NCBI RefSeq assembly: GCF_000735345.1
Contig: NZ_JMPJ01000073.1
Span: forward strand, 1-44,983
From: Ewingella americana ATCC 33852
GTDB lineage: Bacteria; Pseudomonadota; Gammaproteobacteria; Enterobacterales; Enterobacteriaceae
Reading direction: 5' to 3'
DNA length: 44,983 nucleotides
The first letter of the stretch is position 1; each line of letters starts with the position of its first letter. The notes beneath the pieces are model-generated. The model saw only the letters and a list, made by a program, of their open reading frames with translations. It was not told the DNA's origin and did not search any database. Positions 888 to 21,459 of this stretch are shown piece after piece. A program made the position numbers and the translations under genes.

Positions 888-1601
888 TTACCGCAAGCCC
901 TTACTCGGGTCACACTGCATTCGGCTCCAGCCCTTATAGTTTTTCACCTCTGGCACGCTTGTGGGCATGTCCTGCCAATTTGTAAGAAGCTCTGCCGTCA
1001 GGCCACCTATGGCTTTTATAGCAATATACTCGAGCCCCCAACCGGGGCCCGCTGAGCCAGGAGCAATGTTCTGCTTTTCACCGTCCATATCCACATAATC
1101 AACGCCGGGGCCGCCCGGCATAACTCGCGGATCATCAAAGGGTTTTGAACTCATATACAGGTTTCCCTGACGGGTGAGCAGGAAACCCTGATCGTTGACC
1201 ACGGTGAAGGAAAGCATATTTTGTCTGGTAGGCCGCCGAGTCTTGCTCGGTTCTACGGTATTAGTGTTGCTTGCATACTGCGCGTTGCGCCAGGTTCTGC
1301 CGTAATCTTTTGATACCGCGAAGGCGTCGGGGTCCCACGAAGGGATAGCGATGTAGCGCTCAGATGGATGGACATATTTATCGGCAAAAGCGCGGTAAAA
1401 CTGGCTGGCCACTTCAGAACGGATTCCGCGAATGGGGTCAACGTAATACAGTGCTCCCTGGCAGTACCATCCCTTTAGCTCCAGATAGCGGTGGTCGTCA
1501 AAACGGTAGATGACCTGCGTGGGTGTCTCTTGCGATCGGGAGCAGCCCGAGACTGTGAGTAAGCTGACCATCATGACCAGAGACAGTCCTTTGATTTTCA
1601 T
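888..1601 (-). CDS. tli3: Tli3-like T6SS immunity lipoprotein, first copy
   Basis: A 237-residue lipoprotein (lipobox VSGC, Cys about residue 19) whose start codon overlaps the lipase stop in a TCAT/ATGA 4-base overlap, so the two are translationally coupled. Tle3 lipases act in the target periplasm and are countered by periplasmic Tli3 proteins; the gene order vgrG, tle3, tli3 is the known arrangement. No enzymatic motif is visible. Being closest to the effector, this copy is the best candidate for the cognate immunity protein. Family assignment rests on position, lipoprotein signal and size rather than on a database search. Confidence 0.82.
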   Translation of the reverse strand: MKIKGLSLVMMVSLLTVSGCSRSQETPTQVIYRFDDHRYLELKGWYCQGALYYVDPIRGIRSEVASQFYRAFADKYVHPSERYIAIPSWDPDAFAVSKDYGRTWRNAQYASNTNTVEPSKTRRPTRQNMLSFTVVNDQGFLLTRQGNLYMSSKPFDDPRVMPGGPGVDYVDMDGEKQNIAPGSAGPGWGLEYIAIKAIGGLTAELLTNWQDMPTSVPEVKNYKGWSRMQCDPSKGLR

Positions 1602-3871
1602 ACAGTCTTCCTTCTTGGTTGAGCAGGCACTCTGTCATAGCTTTCTACTCGCGGCATCGACCACTGCAGGTTAGCCACCTCTTTGTTATGAATCTCCGGA
1701 TAGCGTGCCGGTACAACGCGGGTGGCGTTCATAAACAGATTCACTACGCCAAATTCACCAGTCGGTAAAATTTGGTCTGGTTTATTCATAAATTTTTTTG
1801 TATTTTCGAAAGGTAATATTCCTGTTTGATAATACTCTCTGGCGTCTTGATCATCTGACCATTCACGCCAGTCGGCAAATTTTATCAATCTTTTCCAGAA
1901 GTCACCGTGGTCCATATCGAATGCTTTACAGGGCCCGATGGCCAAATCGTAGGCCATTGCCAACTCGGGGACTTTGTCTGACATCACTATCGAGGAGTGC
2001 TGGCTAAACATCACGTCGTCGGACTTGCTGTATAAATCATGCAGCTCCGCCTCGGTCAGCCTGCGGCGAAAAACAATCTTTTTATTCGCCTCGTTTACGC
2101 CGACCACTTTGGCACTGACGATATCCACGTTGCGCCAGTATTTGAGCGTATCGAGTTCTCGCTGGGTCATTACGTGCCCCGGCCGCAAATCCTTGAAGGG
2201 GTGATACGGCGGGCAATCAACGGTTTCTTCCACGGTTCGCTGAGACGCACCCGTCGCCCCCGCGCGGGCGTTATAGGAGACCATGGCGTCATTCCCACCC
2301 ACCGGAGCATGGTAGGCCTTGTTTTTATCACCCGCGTCATCCAATGGGTCAGGCTGGCCCATCAGGGTAAAAATAAACGGCTCGGGAAGCGTCTCACCGT
2401 TGGGGATCACGTCGCTGAAGGACCAGCGGGCATTGGTCGCCGTGGAGTACTCAAAGTCCCCTTTAGCGGCAGGGGGTCTTCTAAAGGCTTTGCCGTCAGG
2501 CGGTAGCCCGACGCTGCTGTTCTGAAAGAAGACTCGCTGTTTGAGATTGGGAAGCGTCTTGGCAATCTCTTGCGGTACGCCTCGCCAGCCAAAACCCTGT
2601 ATCGGCAACAGCGACACCGTGCCGTCATTGGGGCAAAAGTAGTTATAGACCTTGCCGAAGTTATTACGCTGATTGAGCGGCGTGCTGTACCAACTGTTAT
2701 TAAACTCTTTGCGAGGCAGCGCCATGGTATCCAGCAGTTTCTTTTGCTCTGCAGGACTGACTAAGCCGTCGCCGTCGGCACAATATTTGCTGTTGGTCGC
2801 CATCAGTTTGCAGAAATTTTCAAAGGTCTTCTGCCGCGCCGCGTCCGTCTGGTGATGACCCGGCTGGCCGTTCTCCAGCCAGCGATTTTCCAGCGAATAA
2901 GGGGAGTGATTGAGGATCACGCAGTCTGCGGGGTTTATACCCTCAGCTTTGAGTATCATATTTGCAAGCATGGTAATGATCGTACCCTGACTATGCGCCA
3001 CGATATTGATCGTATCTTTGGACGTTTCTCTCCTGCTACGAATGGTCCTTATAAGACTGGCAAGACGCTGCGCGGCATAGAACTGGTAAATCCGGTGAGG
3101 ATTGTTGTACACGGGGTGGGTAAAGTCGCCGCCGTTAGCGAGCTCGGCGCGGCTGAGAAACCCGACCACGCCTAACGTCGCTCCGCCCGCGCCCGGCCCA
3201 AGCATATCGGGGATGTTTGTGGTCGCGTTGGCAAAGGTTCCGCCGCCCCAGACACCTTTTAAATCCAGAGTGTTATGGAAACAGTCCATCGGATATTTCG
3301 CACCAAAATGGCGCAGTATTTCCGGGTTATTTTCTCGATACGCATCGTAAGGCAGAGGCGTATCAGGGTTTTTACCGTTTTGGACCATCGCTTCACGATA
3401 CTGGCGTTGGTCCTCTTGCCACGTCTCGTAGTCAACAGGACGATAGCCCCAGTAGAAAGGAATGATCGGCGAACGGGCGCTGTCTGAGCATGTCATCTGT
3501 TTTTGCTGCGGCTCGTGGCAATCCTCCATCACGCCGGACGCGCTGCGAATGCGGTACTTTTTCTCTTCCCACTGGTGCGGCCACAGGTCATCACGTCCCA
3601 AACGCTTTTTCAGCCCCTCAATGATGCCGCGCTCCTGATTCTGATAGGCCTCCCCCACATCATTTACGCCGTGGACCAGAATGACGATGCCCGGCATCGG
3701 CCGATTCACCGGACAGTTGGTGGTATAGCTTTTCTTGCCCGCGCTGACCGGCACGCCGATGCAATCGCTGGCCAGAAAACGCGGAGTATGCACTTTCTGG
3801 CTTTGTGGGTCGTGCGGCTCTGGCGCGTCATCAAAGGGGTTGGAGTTTTGTTGTTCAGGTTGTTCAGTCAC
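1598..3871 (-). CDS. tle3: T6SS lipase effector, Tle3/DUF3274 type
   Basis: A 757-residue alpha/beta-hydrolase effector without signal peptide, as expected for cargo loaded onto VgrG. The oxyanion-side motif ILVHGVN is at 64-70. The nucleophile elbow AHSQG is at 292-296 (predicted Ser294), and a probable acid motif CPNDGTVS has Asp416. A late DHGDFW motif (654-659), likely supplying the catalytic His, sits in the C-terminal region typical of this family. Known Tle3 proteins attack phospholipids from the periplasmic side. The start overlaps the vgrG stop by 4 bases (ATGA) and the stop overlaps the immunity gene start by 4 bases, giving a compact vgrG-effector-immunity operon. The GC-poor stretch near the 3' end differs slightly from the flanks. 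Confidence 0.9.
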   Translation of the reverse strand: MTEQPEQQNSNPFDDAPEPHDPQSQKVHTPRFLASDCIGVPVSAGKKSYTTNCPVNRPMPGIVILVHGVNDVGEAYQNQERGIIEGLKKRLGRDDLWPHQWEEKKYRIRSASGVMEDCHEPQQKQMTCSDSARSPIIPFYWGYRPVDYETWQEDQRQYREAMVQNGKNPDTPLPYDAYRENNPEILRHFGAKYPMDCFHNTLDLKGVWGGGTFANATTNIPDMLGPGAGGATLGVVGFLSRAELANGGDFTHPVYNNPHRIYQFYAAQRLASLIRTIRSRRETSKDTINIVAHSQGTIITMLANMILKAEGINPADCVILNHSPYSLENRWLENGQPGHHQTDAARQKTFENFCKLMATNSKYCADGDGLVSPAEQKKLLDTMALPRKEFNNSWYSTPLNQRNNFGKVYNYFCPNDGTVSLLPIQGFGWRGVPQEIAKTLPNLKQRVFFQNSSVGLPPDGKAFRRPPAAKGDFEYSTATNARWSFSDVIPNGETLPEPFIFTLMGQPDPLDDAGDKNKAYHAPVGGNDAMVSYNARAGATGASQRTVEETVDCPPYHPFKDLRPGHVMTQRELDTLKYWRNVDIVSAKVVGVNEANKKIVFRRRLTEAELHDLYSKSDDVMFSQHSSIVMSDKVPELAMAYDLAIGPCKAFDMDHGDFWKRLIKFADWREWSDDQDAREYYQTGILPFENTKKFMNKPDQILPTGEFGVVNLFMNATRVVPARYPEIHNKEVANLQWSMPRVESYDRVPAQPRRKTV

Positions 3872-6426
3872 GCGGTTCCCTCCGGGCTGTCATTATCGTG
3901 CAGTATTTCAAGCGACCAGGTATCCAGCTCACTGCTGTTCAGTAACGGGGACTCCCCCTGATCGTCGGTTATCCCCTCAATCACCTCGCCTTTTCTATGC
4001 AGCCTGAAGCGTTGCTGGGTCAAGATGTGGCCGGGGTCGTTGGGGGCATGTAGGCGAAACTGCTGGGCAAGTTGGCCCTCATTGAAGGAGGGTTTCACCT
4101 GATCGATACTGGCTTGTGACATGTAAGCGACATGCTGCGTTTTGAAAGAAATGTCGCCAGGCGCGATAACCTCCACCCTGCCATTCATGAGCCGAATACC
4201 CGCGCCGCCACACATCAACAGCAACTCTTTTTGCGCGTTGAGGACAATCCGCCCCTGCGAACTGGTGAGGTTGATATCCTGACTGGCGACTTGAATTATC
4301 TCACCCTGCTGGGCAGTCAGCTTGATCGGGCCTTTGGCGGCGGTGAAGACCATCCCCGCCTTGCGTACCAGCACCGAGAACACGTCGCCTGCGGCCATGG
4401 TGAGCCGCCGGAAGGTATTAATGTTCATATCCCGCTTGGCGGTCGATGCCAGATCTTCACCTGCATGCACCATCACGCTGGCCGGAGAGGTCACCGTCAC
4501 ACCTGCTTCACCGTGCATTGACAAGGTTGGCTTCTGCGCCTCGGCAATGTGTTGGCGCAGTTCAGTCACGGATGACAGATCAGCCGCCGGCGTGTCGGCA
4601 ATTTCCGCGCTGGCAGCAAGGGATCGCGCTAGCTGTAATGCTGACTCGAGCTGCGCGATGGTGGCGGCCATGTCATTTTGCTGGCCCGCAGCCTTGGTTT
4701 GCCGCTCGGTGGTGATATGAAAACTTTCTGCGGAACGCAGGGCTGCCTGTTTATCAGTGCGAAGCTCAACCCCTTCGCCTCGTGGCTCGCCCTGAGCATT
4801 AACCAGATGGCCTAAATTCAGCTGACTCTTGCCGTATTCGGTAGCCAGCTTGATGTGCTCTTTGCCCGCCTTATCTTCCATGCGCAATTTGTTATTGCGC
4901 AATGTGCGGATCACGTTGCGGGTTGAGTTAAAATCTGTGACCAAATCTGGGTTGATTTCATCATGGAAGGCATGAGCAATATAAGGCCGTTCGGGGTCCC
5001 CTAGTTGGAAGCCTATACCGACCTCGGTATTATCCTGCAAAGGAAAATGAATGCCGTATCGGTCACCAGCGTACTGGCGGCCAAGGCGCACCGGCATACT
5101 CTCCAGCCCCTTTTTCCAATCGGCTTTATCGAAATCGAAATGCACCCGATAGCGCCCGATATTATCAATTCTGGCCAGCTGGTCATTGAGCTTTTGCCCG
5201 GATATTCGGGCGGGAATAGTGCCGCTAATCACTGGCCGCGCTATACGAGCCGGGCGAAAACAGACTCTCTCGTTGTAAGGGATCCCGGTGAGTTGGCATT
5301 GAAAGCTGGATTGACGAGAGCCACTAAGCCGCATTTTCGTCACGACCATAGCGTTGATAAATGCCTGAGGGATAGCCCCTTCTATTTTGACTTCGGTACC
5401 CGGAACGATGCCAGGATCGTCGGTGGTAGCGGTTAAGATCGTCATGCCGTTGAGCGCCAGCTCGTTTCTCATTTTGGCGTAGTGCCAGCTGGTTTCCGCC
5501 TGCTGGTTTTTGCCAATCTTCCAGCGGTCACCGCCTTCGAGATGGATATCACCATAGTGATATTCGCCGCCGTGGGTTAAATCCTCGTCACGAAGCGAGT
5601 CGGCTTGCTGATCCAGTTGGTGATAACCTTTACTGGACACATAACTGTAGTTTCTGACGTCAACAGAACCGGGGACAACAACATGTTTTGCCACCAAATT
5701 CTGGATGCTATAACCCGCTGCGACATTACCTGACGGGTTAGCCGCTGTGATTTTATGGTCAAAAAGATAACTAGTCTGTAAATCGCCAAATACGATGACG
5801 ACAATATCGGCATGCTCAGGATGAGCCTCAAACCGGAACCATATGCCCACTTCTGCTAATAGTCGCCGGATAAAAGCCAGATCCGTTTCTCTCCACTGCA
5901 CAATCATTTCGCGGCGCGGGTAAATGTAGCTTAGAGAATCAAAATTAATCTCATATCCCTCGAAACGGTGCTCCTTCAGAATGCTTTTGACCACTTCTGG
6001 AACGGACATTTCCTGATAAATCGCACAACGCAGGCGAGTATCCAATAGCGCCAGAGGGTGCTCCAGCACGGCTTCGTATAACGTTTCATCCACACTGGTG
6101 CTGATACGTTCAAGTGAAGTGATCACGCCACAAATTTGGCGCAAGGCTGTCCATCGATTGGCCGTTTGTATCAAGCTTGACCAATCAGGATTGAACCCTC
6201 GCATTCTGAATGAGGCACTCTTTTTCAGCAAACTGGCTGCGGCGACGTCAGCCTCATTTGAGGTAAAGCGGATGCAATACCGGTAAGGTTCGCTGAGGGC
6301 TTCCTCGCCGTGGAAAGACTCCACATCAGCGACAAATTCAGAGTTGGGGATATCTAATAAGTATTTATTCAGCGACTCTTCTGGAATAAATTTAGGTTGC
6401 TGAGGAGTTAGCGAGTATCCGTACAT
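3868..6426 (-). CDS. vgrG: Type VI secretion spike protein VgrG with C-terminal extension
   Basis: VgrG forms the trimeric needle tip that carries effectors into target cells. The N-terminal two thirds is the gp27/gp5-like core, including the PVRLGRQYAGDRYG and FPLQDNTEVGIGF motifs. A DUF2345-type beta-helix region follows (repeated short strands around SPASVMVHAGEDLA and GRIVLNAQKELLLMCGG). The last 60 or so residues (FRLHRKGEVIEGITDDQGE) resemble the transthyretin-like tail used by some VgrGs to recruit effectors. The start at 6426 (852 aa) is preferred over an ATG two codons upstream because AAAAGGG then lies 6 bases away. The gene is followed directly by the lipase, its predicted cargo. 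Confidence 0.92.
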   Translation of the reverse strand: MYGYSLTPQQPKFIPEESLNKYLLDIPNSEFVADVESFHGEEALSEPYRYCIRFTSNEADVAAASLLKKSASFRMRGFNPDWSSLIQTANRWTALRQICGVITSLERISTSVDETLYEAVLEHPLALLDTRLRCAIYQEMSVPEVVKSILKEHRFEGYEINFDSLSYIYPRREMIVQWRETDLAFIRRLLAEVGIWFRFEAHPEHADIVVIVFGDLQTSYLFDHKITAANPSGNVAAGYSIQNLVAKHVVVPGSVDVRNYSYVSSKGYHQLDQQADSLRDEDLTHGGEYHYGDIHLEGGDRWKIGKNQQAETSWHYAKMRNELALNGMTILTATTDDPGIVPGTEVKIEGAIPQAFINAMVVTKMRLSGSRQSSFQCQLTGIPYNERVCFRPARIARPVISGTIPARISGQKLNDQLARIDNIGRYRVHFDFDKADWKKGLESMPVRLGRQYAGDRYGIHFPLQDNTEVGIGFQLGDPERPYIAHAFHDEINPDLVTDFNSTRNVIRTLRNNKLRMEDKAGKEHIKLATEYGKSQLNLGHLVNAQGEPRGEGVELRTDKQAALRSAESFHITTERQTKAAGQQNDMAATIAQLESALQLARSLAASAEIADTPAADLSSVTELRQHIAEAQKPTLSMHGEAGVTVTSPASVMVHAGEDLASTAKRDMNINTFRRLTMAAGDVFSVLVRKAGMVFTAAKGPIKLTAQQGEIIQVASQDINLTSSQGRIVLNAQKELLLMCGGAGIRLMNGRVEVIAPGDISFKTQHVAYMSQASIDQVKPSFNEGQLAQQFRLHAPNDPGHILTQQRFRLHRKGEVIEGITDDQGESPLLNSSELDTWSLEILHDNDSPEGTA

Positions 6427-6432
6427 TGGCAT

Positions 6433-12320: not shown

Positions 12321-12528
12321 GAGAATAGATGATTTCTGTTTTGGCCGCACTGAATTTCTACCCATTTTCTTTCGATCAGACTTTGAGGAGGGATCACAGC
12401 TTCTCATCAGCTTGCACAGCAGATGAATACTCGATAAACAATATAAATTACTTATGGTTTTGGAATGTATTTTAAATAATAAAAGGCATTTAAATAAAAT
12501 TTCTGTTTTTTTGCAATTCACTTCAAAG

Positions 12529-12545
12529 TAATTCGGCGGGAATTA
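12529..12545. promoter_or_regulatory. Inverted repeat upstream of the microcin-like gene
   Basis: TAATTC (12529-12534) and GAATTA (12540-12545) are separated by GGCGG, 38 bases before the start codon and next to a TAGTAT/TATTAT stretch that could serve as a -10. A regulator site is plausible but unidentified. Confidence 0.4.
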
Positions 12546-12582
12546 TCAAATAGTATTATTTCACATAACAAAGGAGTTGTTT

Positions 12583-12918
12583 ATGAAAGTATTAGAATCC
12601 TCTCAACTTGATGGAATCTCGGGTGGCGGTGGCCGTAATGATAGTGCAGCCCAGCGTGGAACGCGTAATAGAAACAACTCAAGAGGCGGGCGAAATAATG
12701 GCGACTATTATTCCAGACACACCAATCCTAACTGCGTTAATGGCGTATTTACCGGAATGCTAGGCGGTCTTCCAGGCGTTGCTGTTGGTGCTTTCAAAGG
12801 AGGTTGCTTTGATAATGGCGATAAAGGTGGCGGCAATGTTGGCATGGGTAAAGGTGGCAATAAAGGCGGTGTGGGGAACTGCGCAGGCAAGAACGACTCC
12901 GGTGGCTGTAGCTGGTAA
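12583..12918 (+). CDS. Candidate class II microcin precursor with double-glycine leader
   Basis: A 111-residue peptide beginning MKVLESSQLDGISGG, which closely follows the double-glycine leader pattern of class IIa microcins such as microcin V. Cleavage after Gly15 would leave a 96-residue product. That product has an Arg/Asn-rich cationic start, a hydrophobic Gly-rich centre (VFTGMLGGLPGVAVGAF) and a Gly/Lys/Asn-rich tail. Four Cys (51, 75, 100, 109) could form two disulfides; the end is GGCSW. The ATG at 12583 has a textbook AAGGAG 6 bases upstream; the frame also opens at a TTG at 12577. A small membrane protein follows, as immunity genes do. No peptidase-ABC exporter is in the window, so export would rely on genes elsewhere. 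Activity is unproven. Confidence 0.78.
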   Translation: MKVLESSQLDGISGGGGRNDSAAQRGTRNRNNSRGGRNNGDYYSRHTNPNCVNGVFTGMLGGLPGVAVGAFKGGCFDNGDKGGGNVGMGKGGNKGGVGNCAGKNDSGGCSW

Positions 12919-12957
12919 AAACCTGTTAAAACAGTAGTAAACCCTATTTTTCAGCTC

Positions 12958-13179
12958 ATGGTAAACGGTATGTATCAATTAATTCGTGCAGTGTTTGTCT
13001 TCATCGGATTCACCTTAGCCACTTGTTTTCTCGGCGGTGCCGGAGTGACTTTTACTCACGGCTACAATGCCCCAAAAGAATTATCAATAATTATCGTTAC
13101 GGTGGTTTTCTCAGGGTGCTTCATTCTGGCTGCTAACTTCTTGGTTAAATATCTGTTTGCTGAGAAATTTAAAAAATAA
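12958..13179 (+). CDS. Small two-TM membrane protein, putative microcin immunity protein
   Basis: A 73-residue protein with two clear membrane segments (about 8-29, LIRAVFVFIGFTLATCFLGG; about 43-64, SIIIVTVVFSGCFILAANFL) and a Lys-rich end. Size, membrane topology and place 39 bases after the microcin-like gene match known class II microcin immunity proteins, but no homology is recognised. An alternative start is ATG at 12970; neither has a strong ribosome binding site, which suggests coupling to the upstream gene or modest expression. Confidence 0.65.
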   Translation: MVNGMYQLIRAVFVFIGFTLATCFLGGAGVTFTHGYNAPKELSIIIVTVVFSGCFILAANFLVKYLFAEKFKK

Positions 13180-13200
13180 AATAGCTAAAATTCTAGAACA

Positions 13201-13238
13201 TTGCTCCAGAAAATATATTCTTACTGGAGCAATTATTT
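13201..13238 (+). terminator. Probable terminator after the microcin-like pair
   Basis: Perfect 9-bp stem TTGCTCCAG (13201-13209) and CTGGAGCAA (13224-13232) with a 14-base loop, then TTATTT. The T-run is short. Confidence 0.6.
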
Positions 13239-13371
13239 AATGGAATAAGTTACTCGTTTATTTAACTCGCCGCCTATTGAATTGAAAGCAGAGATCATTG
13301 GATACTTGGATAAAATAGCTGATTCTCGGTAACATAGAGAATTAACCGATTCAACGAAGACAGAGGTCGCT

Positions 13372-20055: not shown

Positions 20056-20720
20056 GTGATTTCTCGCTGTGGGATATCTACCGCAACCTGCTGCTGGCGC
20101 TGCGCTGGACCGTCGGACTGTCGCTGATTGCCTTTATCGGCGGCGGTATCGTCGGCGCAATCCTGCTGGTCATGCGCCTGTCCCATCGCCGCTGGCTGCA
20201 AACCATCGTGGTGATTTACGTCAACCTGTTTCAGGGCACGCCGCTGTTGATGCAGCTGTTTTTGACCTACTTCGGACTGGCGCTGTTTGGCATTGATACC
20301 ACCCCGCTGGTGGCAGCCAGCCTCTGTTTAACCCTTTACGCCAGCGCCTATCTGACCGATATCTGGCGGGGCAGCGTGGAGAGCATTTCAAAGCAGCAGT
20401 GGGAGGCCTCCGCCAGTCTGGCGCTCTCTTTCGGCGAGCAGCTGCGCTACGTGATTTTGCCGCAGGCGGTGCGCGTGGCTATCGCCCCGACCGTGGGCTT
20501 TATGGTGCAGGCCGTCAAAGCCACCGCGCTGGCCTCGGTGATTGGCTTCGTCGAGCTGACGCGCTCCGGGCAGATTATTGCAAACGCCACTTTCTCACCA
20601 TTTTTGGTATACGGCAGCGTGGCGCTGCTCTATTTCATCCTCTGTTTCCCGCTCTCGCTGTGGAGCAGGTATCTCGAAAAACAAGTAATGCGTGGAGCTG
20701 ATAACCATGACCGACACTAA
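20052..20720 (+). CDS. Amino-acid ABC transporter permease (second)
   Basis: A 222-residue HisQ/GlnP-type permease, partner of the preceding protein. The family motif [17 protein letters not shown] and the EAA loop ([29 protein letters not shown]) are clear. It starts at the ATGA overlap with the first permease gene (AGGAAAAA upstream) and overlaps the ATPase gene by 14 bases, so the three are translationally coupled. Confidence 0.9.
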
Positions 20721-21459
20721 CCACACCGAGGCCGGTTTTGCGGTCGTTGATATCACCGGTTTGCACAAACGCTTTGGCGACAATGAAGTGCTGAAGGGCA
20801 TTGATCTGAAGATCAAACGCAAAGAAGTGGTATGCATTCTGGGCAAAAGCGGCTCGGGTAAAAGCACCCTGCTGCGCTGCATTAACGGGCTGGAGAGCTT
20901 CCACAAAGGCACGTTAACCGTCGACGGCCAAGCCTTGCGCCATGACGACCCGGCCGCCATGCGCGAGCTGCGCCAAAACGTCGGCATGATTTTCCAGAGC
21001 TTCAATCTGTTCCCGCATCTCACCGTGGGCCGCAACATCATGCTCGCGCCGACGCTGGTGAAGAAGATGCAAAAAGAGTCGGCGGAGCGCGCCGCGCGAA
21101 CCCTGCTGGCCCGCGTCGGTCTAGAGGAAAAATTCGACATGTGGCCCGCCAGTCTCTCCGGCGGCCAGCAGCAGCGCGTGGCCATTGCCCGCGCGCTGGC
21201 GATGAACCCGGAGGTGCTGCTGTGTGACGAAATCACCTCGGCGCTCGACCCCGAGCTGGTCGGCGAAGTGCTGCAGGTAATCGAAAACCTCGCCGAAGAG
21301 GGGATGACCATCATCATGGTGACCCATGAGATGAACTTTGCGCGCAAAGTCAGCGATCGCATCGTCTTTATGCATCAGGGGAAAGTCCACGAGGTGGGCA
21401 CCCCGGAGCAGATTTTTACCGCACCACAAACGCCGGAGCTAAAGCAGTTCCTTGCCTAG
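20707..21459 (+). CDS. Amino-acid ABC transporter ATP-binding protein
   Basis: A 250-residue ATPase of the GlnQ/HisP type. Walker A is GKSGSGKS (46-53), the Q-loop is FQSFNLFPH, the signature is LSGGQQQR (150-157) and Walker B is LLCDE (Asp174, Glu175), followed by the switch His in VTHEM. ATG at 20707 with GGAG 9 bases upstream gives the usual length. It energises the two permeases before it. Confidence 0.93.

Follow-up and report, generated by a model that had tools for sequence, protein, structure and literature searches.

A probable divergent PDI/S-type microcin with a putative McpI-type immunity protein in an exporter-less insert of Ewingella americana

The window analysed in this work, being the whole of the 44,983-bp contig C73 in the 4.87-Mb genome (G000) of Ewingella americana ATCC 33852, contains two small consecutive genes (Table 1) which an initial annotation had put forward as a new class II microcin and its immunity protein. 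Considering the homology of both products, their pairing, the paralog with an exporter in the same genome, the boundaries of the insert in which they reside and the co-divergence of core and immunity gene, all of which are read from sequence, it is highly probable that the pair represents a divergent class IIa microcin of the PDI/S family together with the cognate immunity protein of McpI type, and that it forms a cassette without exporter on an Ewingella replicon resembling pB61a, the precursor probably being exported in trans. The proposal of a class IIa-like pair without an adjacent exporter is upheld by PDI/S and McpI homology, by the C39-linked paralog pair and by recurrence in other genera, whereas its novelty is not, the peptide being a divergent PDI/S member.

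Gene pair and family membership

The leader, the ribosome binding site, the 96-residue mature part, the four cysteines (precursor positions 51, 75, 100 and 109) and the hydrophobic core can all be read directly from the sequence as initially described. The 15-residue leader MKVLESSQLDGISGG ends in a double glycine (GG), in agreement with the 15-18 residues and final GG or glycine-alanine (GA) of class II microcin leaders, and this ending is conserved in the paralog on contig C76 and in G001, another genome of the genus. The mature part is rich in Gly, Asn and Arg, and between Cys51 and Cys75 it carries a hydrophobic glycine-spaced stretch in which C51, G62, G65, G69, G73 and C75 are invariant in 14 of 14 aligned rows. 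The C-terminus reads AGKNDSGGCSW which, as judged by eye, includes a cysteine and no Ser-rich end; a class IIb assignment was rejected for want of a Gly/Ser-rich C-terminal siderophore motif.

The small protein that follows after a gap of 51 nt shows two hydrophobic segments in a Kyte-Doolittle scan, as expected from the two-transmembrane protein annotated there, and it is related to the McpI-position protein, which makes it a predicted adjacent small membrane immunity protein. The ATG at 12970 is taken as its best start in preference to the ATG at 12958, because G001, a relative at 97% identity, has a 1-base insertion at 12962 which breaks the frame from 12958; a further 1-base indel in the last 13 bases of the gene gives G001 a slightly longer C-terminus. 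When Pfam and NCBIfam were searched with E-values up to 10, no match was obtained for the precursor, and only sub-cut-off matches (T4SS_pilin, DUF6726, Ycf70, SecE) for the small protein. As a separate observation, at L041:5278-5799 (G385) one precursor is followed by two McpI-like immunity genes in tandem.

Table 1. Features of the microcin pair and its surroundings (window coordinates)
Feature	Position	Strand	Basis or remark
Ribosome binding site AAGGAG	12571..12576	+	6 nt 5' of the ATG; read directly
Microcin precursor, 111 aa, PDI/S family (ATG 12583 to stop 12918)	12583..12918	+	Homology, alignment, shuffle test
Double-glycine leader MKVLESSQLDGISGG, predicted cleavage after Gly15	12583..12627	+	Sequence; likeness to paralog leader MKVIDNSLVEYISGG
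Gly/Asn/Arg-rich N-terminal segment of mature peptide	12628..12732	+	Tracks immunity gene less closely than core
Hydrophobic glycine-spaced core, Cys51 to Cys75	12733..12807	+	Aligned with McpM Cys57 and Cys90; McpM mutants (PMC5311971)
Gly-rich tail ending C-x8-C-SW, putative uptake tail	12808..12915	+	Uptake role suggested by PMC13174018 (excerpt)
Putative immunity protein, 69 aa, McpI-like, two predicted transmembrane helices	12970..13179	+	Kyte-Doolittle scan; similarity to McpI-position protein; protection predicted
Terminator-like inverted repeat, 13-nt arms, 92% complementary	13200..13233	.	Downstream of immunity gene
Insert of approximately 962 bp, pair the only genes recognised	12362..13323	.	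Absent at homologous site of plasmid pB61a; 39.6% G+C

The mature sequence had been held to be unlike microcin PDI, which proved to be wrong. Its similarity to McpM and to microcin S is significant: none of 1000 composition-preserving shuffles reached the observed score against either. A strong Gly/Asn richness does inflate scores against Gly-rich proteins, and such a bias would favour a Gly-rich structural protein or a chance open reading frame (ORF) unrelated to microcins. Homology of this kind had been named at the outset as grounds for abandoning the microcin assignment; this alternative is disfavoured by the shuffle test, on which the structural protein was rejected, and also by a paired partner gene which is conserved in several genera, so that we attach a negligible probability to it.

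Microcin PDI (McpM/McpI, Escherichia coli; plasmid Plm, NC_019097.1) shares with the window pair a GG leader, four cysteines of which the first two flank a glycine-rich core, a last cysteine pair 9 residues apart (Cys109/Cys118 in McpM) within a cysteine-containing tail, and an adjacent small two-transmembrane protein, both proteins being significantly similar to their window counterparts. The two precursors are 30% identical over their aligned length, and the first cysteines are spaced by 24 positions in the window peptide (Cys51-Cys75) versus 33 in McpM. Unlike microcin PDI, which resides on an IncI plasmid, the window pair, on its probable pB61a-like replicon, lacks genes in cis for a CPBP protein, an adaptor or an exporter: neither a CPBP gene at the mcpA position nor mcpD or mcpB was found in the cluster, the pair alone being recognised in the insert. 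The second leader cleavage site of PDI is not clearly conserved; G35 G36 R37 N38 of the window peptide do fall at the numbers of Gly35/Ala36, but a McpM-like second cleavage was rejected as a firm claim since MAFFT leaves these residues unaligned and the C76 paralog is without them.

Microcin S (mcsS, E. coli G3/10 pSYM1, NC_019013.1; L050) is 32% identical over the aligned precursor, and its operon, unlike the window pair, has the CPBP-type mcsI and an exporter in cis. Between mcsS and mcsI of this verified operon, a 65-aa McpI-like ORF with a GTG start (L034:7389-7583) is found which does not appear in the gene table of the record, and McsI (216 aa), the published immunity protein of microcin S, is identical at 114 of 205 positions to the CPBP protein located after the small ORF in Plm. 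According to the primers in the excerpted text of PMC3316575, the mcsS clone pAZ9 appears to contain the 65-aa ORF, and the protecting clone pAZ8 starts at its end. Protection by McsI thus does not require this ORF, and microcin S may have a second, overlooked immunity gene.

The closest named relative found is a pair from Serratia ureilytica (NZ_JABXOF010000011.1, L057), whose immunity protein and precursor are 48% and 49% identical, respectively, to those of the window, with 35 of 44 identical residues from Cys51 to Lys94. As in the window, no C39 exporter or adaptor was found in the 12.2 kb examined; the Serratia precursor differs in its GA leader, its N-terminal segment and its ending (CSR versus CSW). 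Class II microcins SM001-SM080 of Serratia marcescens, a member of another Yersiniaceae genus, belong to the same class. The excerpted text of the corresponding paper (PMC13101503) lists 93 unique class II microcin candidates in this species, some of them apart from the main locus, such as SM020 and SM064 in strain SM39. Class II microcins are widespread according to PMC9746304 (excerpt), which places 39 hits to PDI and S in a phylogeny and finds a hit in 51.9% of sampled Yersiniaceae species. Four E. americana genomes, as well as plasmid pB61a, are reported to have microcin hits in PMC7281767 (excerpt).

A candidate exporter elsewhere in the genome

Within the window, phmmer searches with the C76 proteins as queries recovered neither a C39 exporter nor an HlyD-type adaptor, the only match being an ordinary ABC ATPase (20692-21459), and the earlier statement that no export genes are adjacent therefore stands. 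It had been recommended to look for CvaA/CvaB-type exporters in the remainder of the genome, and this search was positive. Four C39-peptidase matches were obtained, three of which retain the Cys, His and Asp of the peptidase (the exporter on C40 has Asn at the catalytic Asp position); a membrane fusion protein (MFP) adjoins the peptidase-containing ABC transporter (PCAT) on C76, C53 and C66, and the TolC family has seven matches, two of them over the cut-off. The C39 PCAT, MFP and TolC expected for a class II microcin are all encoded in this genome, none of them adjacent to the window pair.

On C76, the paralog precursor (51% identical) and its own two-helix partner are directly followed by an HlyD-type adaptor and a C39 ABC exporter, with no ORF of CPBP size at this locus. 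The exporter gene is 96.2% identical to one on plasmid pB61a, and its product has Cys32, His105 and Asp121, the same numbers as those of the CvaB catalytic triad (PMC9746304, excerpt). Because the window leader is closer to the C76 leader (MKV...ISGG) than to those of the C53 and C66 peptides, which end in GA, the C76 exporter is most likely the best candidate for export of the window peptide. Small double-glycine peptides are also located beside other C39 exporters of the genome (L011:9991-10860, L010:10789-10980, L012:5926-6126): C66 encodes two similar 77-aa GA-leader peptides, C53 a 63-aa peptide, and C40 a cysteine-containing 66-aa GG peptide.

From these elements we infer secretion in trans, cleavage, disulfide formation, porin entry, membrane killing and protection. 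Export of the precursor, with cleavage after Gly15, would be carried out by a C39 peptidase ABC exporter from another locus, most likely that of C76, in conjunction with the C76 HlyD-type adaptor and a TolC-family channel. Outside the cell, the Cys51-Cys75 disulfide and the glycine-rich hydrophobic core would constitute the killing unit, with the Cys-x8-Cys tail as the likely uptake part; the C-terminal part of PDI is treated as an uptake domain in PMC13174018 (excerpt), where candidate hybrids of PDI and H47 modules are also described. By analogy with PDI, which uses OmpF (PMC10233263, excerpt) and whose products reportedly make the inner membrane permeable (PMC10233263, excerpt; PMC5311971), the peptide may enter relatives via an OmpF-like porin and permeabilise their inner membrane, against which the 69-aa protein would protect the producer at its own inner membrane.

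Insert, replicon and distribution

The pair is flanked by a tRNA-binding gene and a metal-sensing repressor, which are neighbours on the 331-kb E. americana plasmid pB61a with no microcin between them, approximately 5 other bases being aligned there in place of the 962-bp insert. The G+C content of the insert (30% 5' of the precursor and 50% within it) compares with 55.9% for the window. Of a 12-kb query from the window, 59% matched pB61a at 95.5% identity, in four pieces. The pair probably sits on a large Ewingella plasmid, a pB61a-like replicon. Direct repeats near the insert were not accepted as marks of a mobile element, as they are short two-copy families. A sigma-70 promoter scan of the region yielded three sites versus 3.0 expected, no better than shuffles. 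Two terminator-like sites were found versus 0.9 expected by shuffles, of which one, on the minus strand (13211-13191), overlaps the inverted repeat of Table 1 and the other falls within the immunity gene.

The pair is present in two of six genus genomes, its own included, G001 being the sole match among the five others; the remaining four also have no DNA match to the flanking tRNA-binding gene, and for this reason the replicon region is probably absent there. Its recurrence in G001, and as a paralog pair in its own genome, indicates at the sequence level that it is more than chance. Beyond the genus, a contig search with the immunity alignment returned one locus, that of S. ureilytica, while with the precursor alignment 239 stretches fitted a pattern and none was confirmed, perhaps due to the Gly-rich query; neither tblastn of the window precursor on plasmids nor both alignments on viral contigs gave a match. 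A class-level search matched two of 369 genomes, its own and G510, the latter match being weak, confined to the core and located in a 287-aa open frame, and hence read as chance.

It may be argued that the pair has decayed or is not expressed, in which case it would be a satellite relic that has lost its export and is kept at most for its immunity protein. Three observations weigh against an active microcin in this manner: the lack of an exporter in cis, the fact that some relatives in other genomes contain internal stops or have no GG leader, and the lack of a recognisable precursor near McpI-like genes at six of eight loci scanned. However, two genomes have both ORFs intact, and the ORFs have diverged less than the non-coding part of the insert: when the final 13 bases of the immunity gene are omitted, 533 coding bases differ by 12 substitutions, whereas 416 non-coding bases differ by 24 as well as by four indels (Fisher p 0.006 for the substitutions); moreover, the ribosome binding site is clear and exporters are present in the genome. 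Between window and G001 the precursor has three synonymous and three non-synonymous changes (synonymous divergence dS 0.038, non-synonymous divergence dN 0.012; p 0.14, not significant) and the immunity gene four and two (p 0.03). We consider a relic unlikely in comparison with a pair exported in trans.

Among the relatives concerned, L046, L047 and L053 have internal stop codons in the precursor and adjoin open immunity-like genes. The eight loci scanned come from the 18 of 392 genomes with a match, where no precursor had been seen earlier, plus a second G280 locus: L078, L083 (the McpI-like gene of which has an internal stop), L084, L085, L086 and L087 have no recognisable precursor in approximately 800 nt upstream and are possible orphan immunity genes, while L079 and L080 do have one. 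A C39 exporter was found in 18 of 20 further chosen genomes, comprising G001-G005 (of which G001 matches) and 15 other genomes with matches, with the matching G060, G277 and G342 left out. In the two exporter-less genomes, G406 and G412, the precursor contains an internal stop or has no leader motif; this association proves nothing, given that G170 and G418 (stops) and G353 (no clear leader) do have exporters.

Elsewhere in the window, the minus strand encodes, in this order, a VgrG-type type VI secretion protein (3868-6432), a Tle3-family phospholipase effector (1598-3871) and two similar tandem lipoprotein-like ORFs (145-879 and 888-1601), the last two being perhaps the immunity genes of the effector.

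Exchange of core and immunity gene

The exporter locus of the own genome is, per 100-bp window, 81-100% identical to that of G001 and pB61a from upstream into the precursor gene, drops to 25-62% over core and immunity gene, and returns to at least 88% once inside the adaptor gene; values are lower at the ragged ends of the alignment, in its first and last windows. The shared protein part amounts to 25 precursor residues, corresponding to the leader and approximately 10 mature residues, with one difference in G001. The G001/pB61a peptide at this locus has a different type of core, and the small membrane protein that follows it in G001 has no detectable relation to the window immunity protein (Z -0.1). 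In G001, the pair and the exporter locus are on one 232-kb contig, approximately 132 kb apart.

Among 14 intact pairs, immunity distance followed core distance (Spearman 0.68; 0/2000 permutations) more closely than N-terminal distance (0.30; 25/2000), with partial values of 0.64 for the core and 0.06 for the N-terminal segment, and N-terminal and core distances correlated at 0.38 (4/2000). The contrast was weaker with 11 pairs (core 0.55, 5/2000; N-terminal 0.36, 18/2000; partials 0.47 and 0.17). The 14-pair set consists of alignment A4 minus L039 and L045, plus L057 and L040, and the 11-pair set additionally omits L040, L043 and L050; A4 itself omits the internal-stop relatives as well as other core types or weak matches (L040, L042, L054 (both genes), L055, L056, L030, L031, L037, L038 and the second L051 gene). 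Taken with the likeness of core and immunity protein in S. ureilytica, these correlations suggest that core and immunity gene tend to travel together.

A co-diverging McpI-like partner, along with homology to two microcins with shown killing, also speaks against the idea that the product, instead of being a bacteriocin, is a GG peptide secreted for signalling or for a role in biofilms, for which secreted GG-motif peptides with a biofilm role in a cyanobacterium (PMC4997328, excerpt) offer a precedent; we regard it as highly improbable in comparison with a PDI/S-type microcin.

The view that class II microcins are modular has been published before (PMC13174018, excerpt). We tentatively extend it, while leaning slightly against the extension, to Ewingella PDI-type microcins as interchangeable cassettes: the exporter-linked slot would keep the leader and approximately 10 mature residues, core and immunity gene being swapped together from strain to strain, and mini-cassettes without an exporter, the 962-bp insert among them, would be satellites using the same exporter. 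If this is true, a replicon gains a weapon with less than 1 kb of DNA. The pair adds an intact, testable Ewingella member to the microcin PDI/S family. Naturally matched material is provided by the two paralog pairs of a single genome, by the candidate exporter that they share and by the cassette exchange seen between strains at the exporter locus, and with it one may ask which part of a microcin the exporter reads, which part kills, and how specific immunity is.
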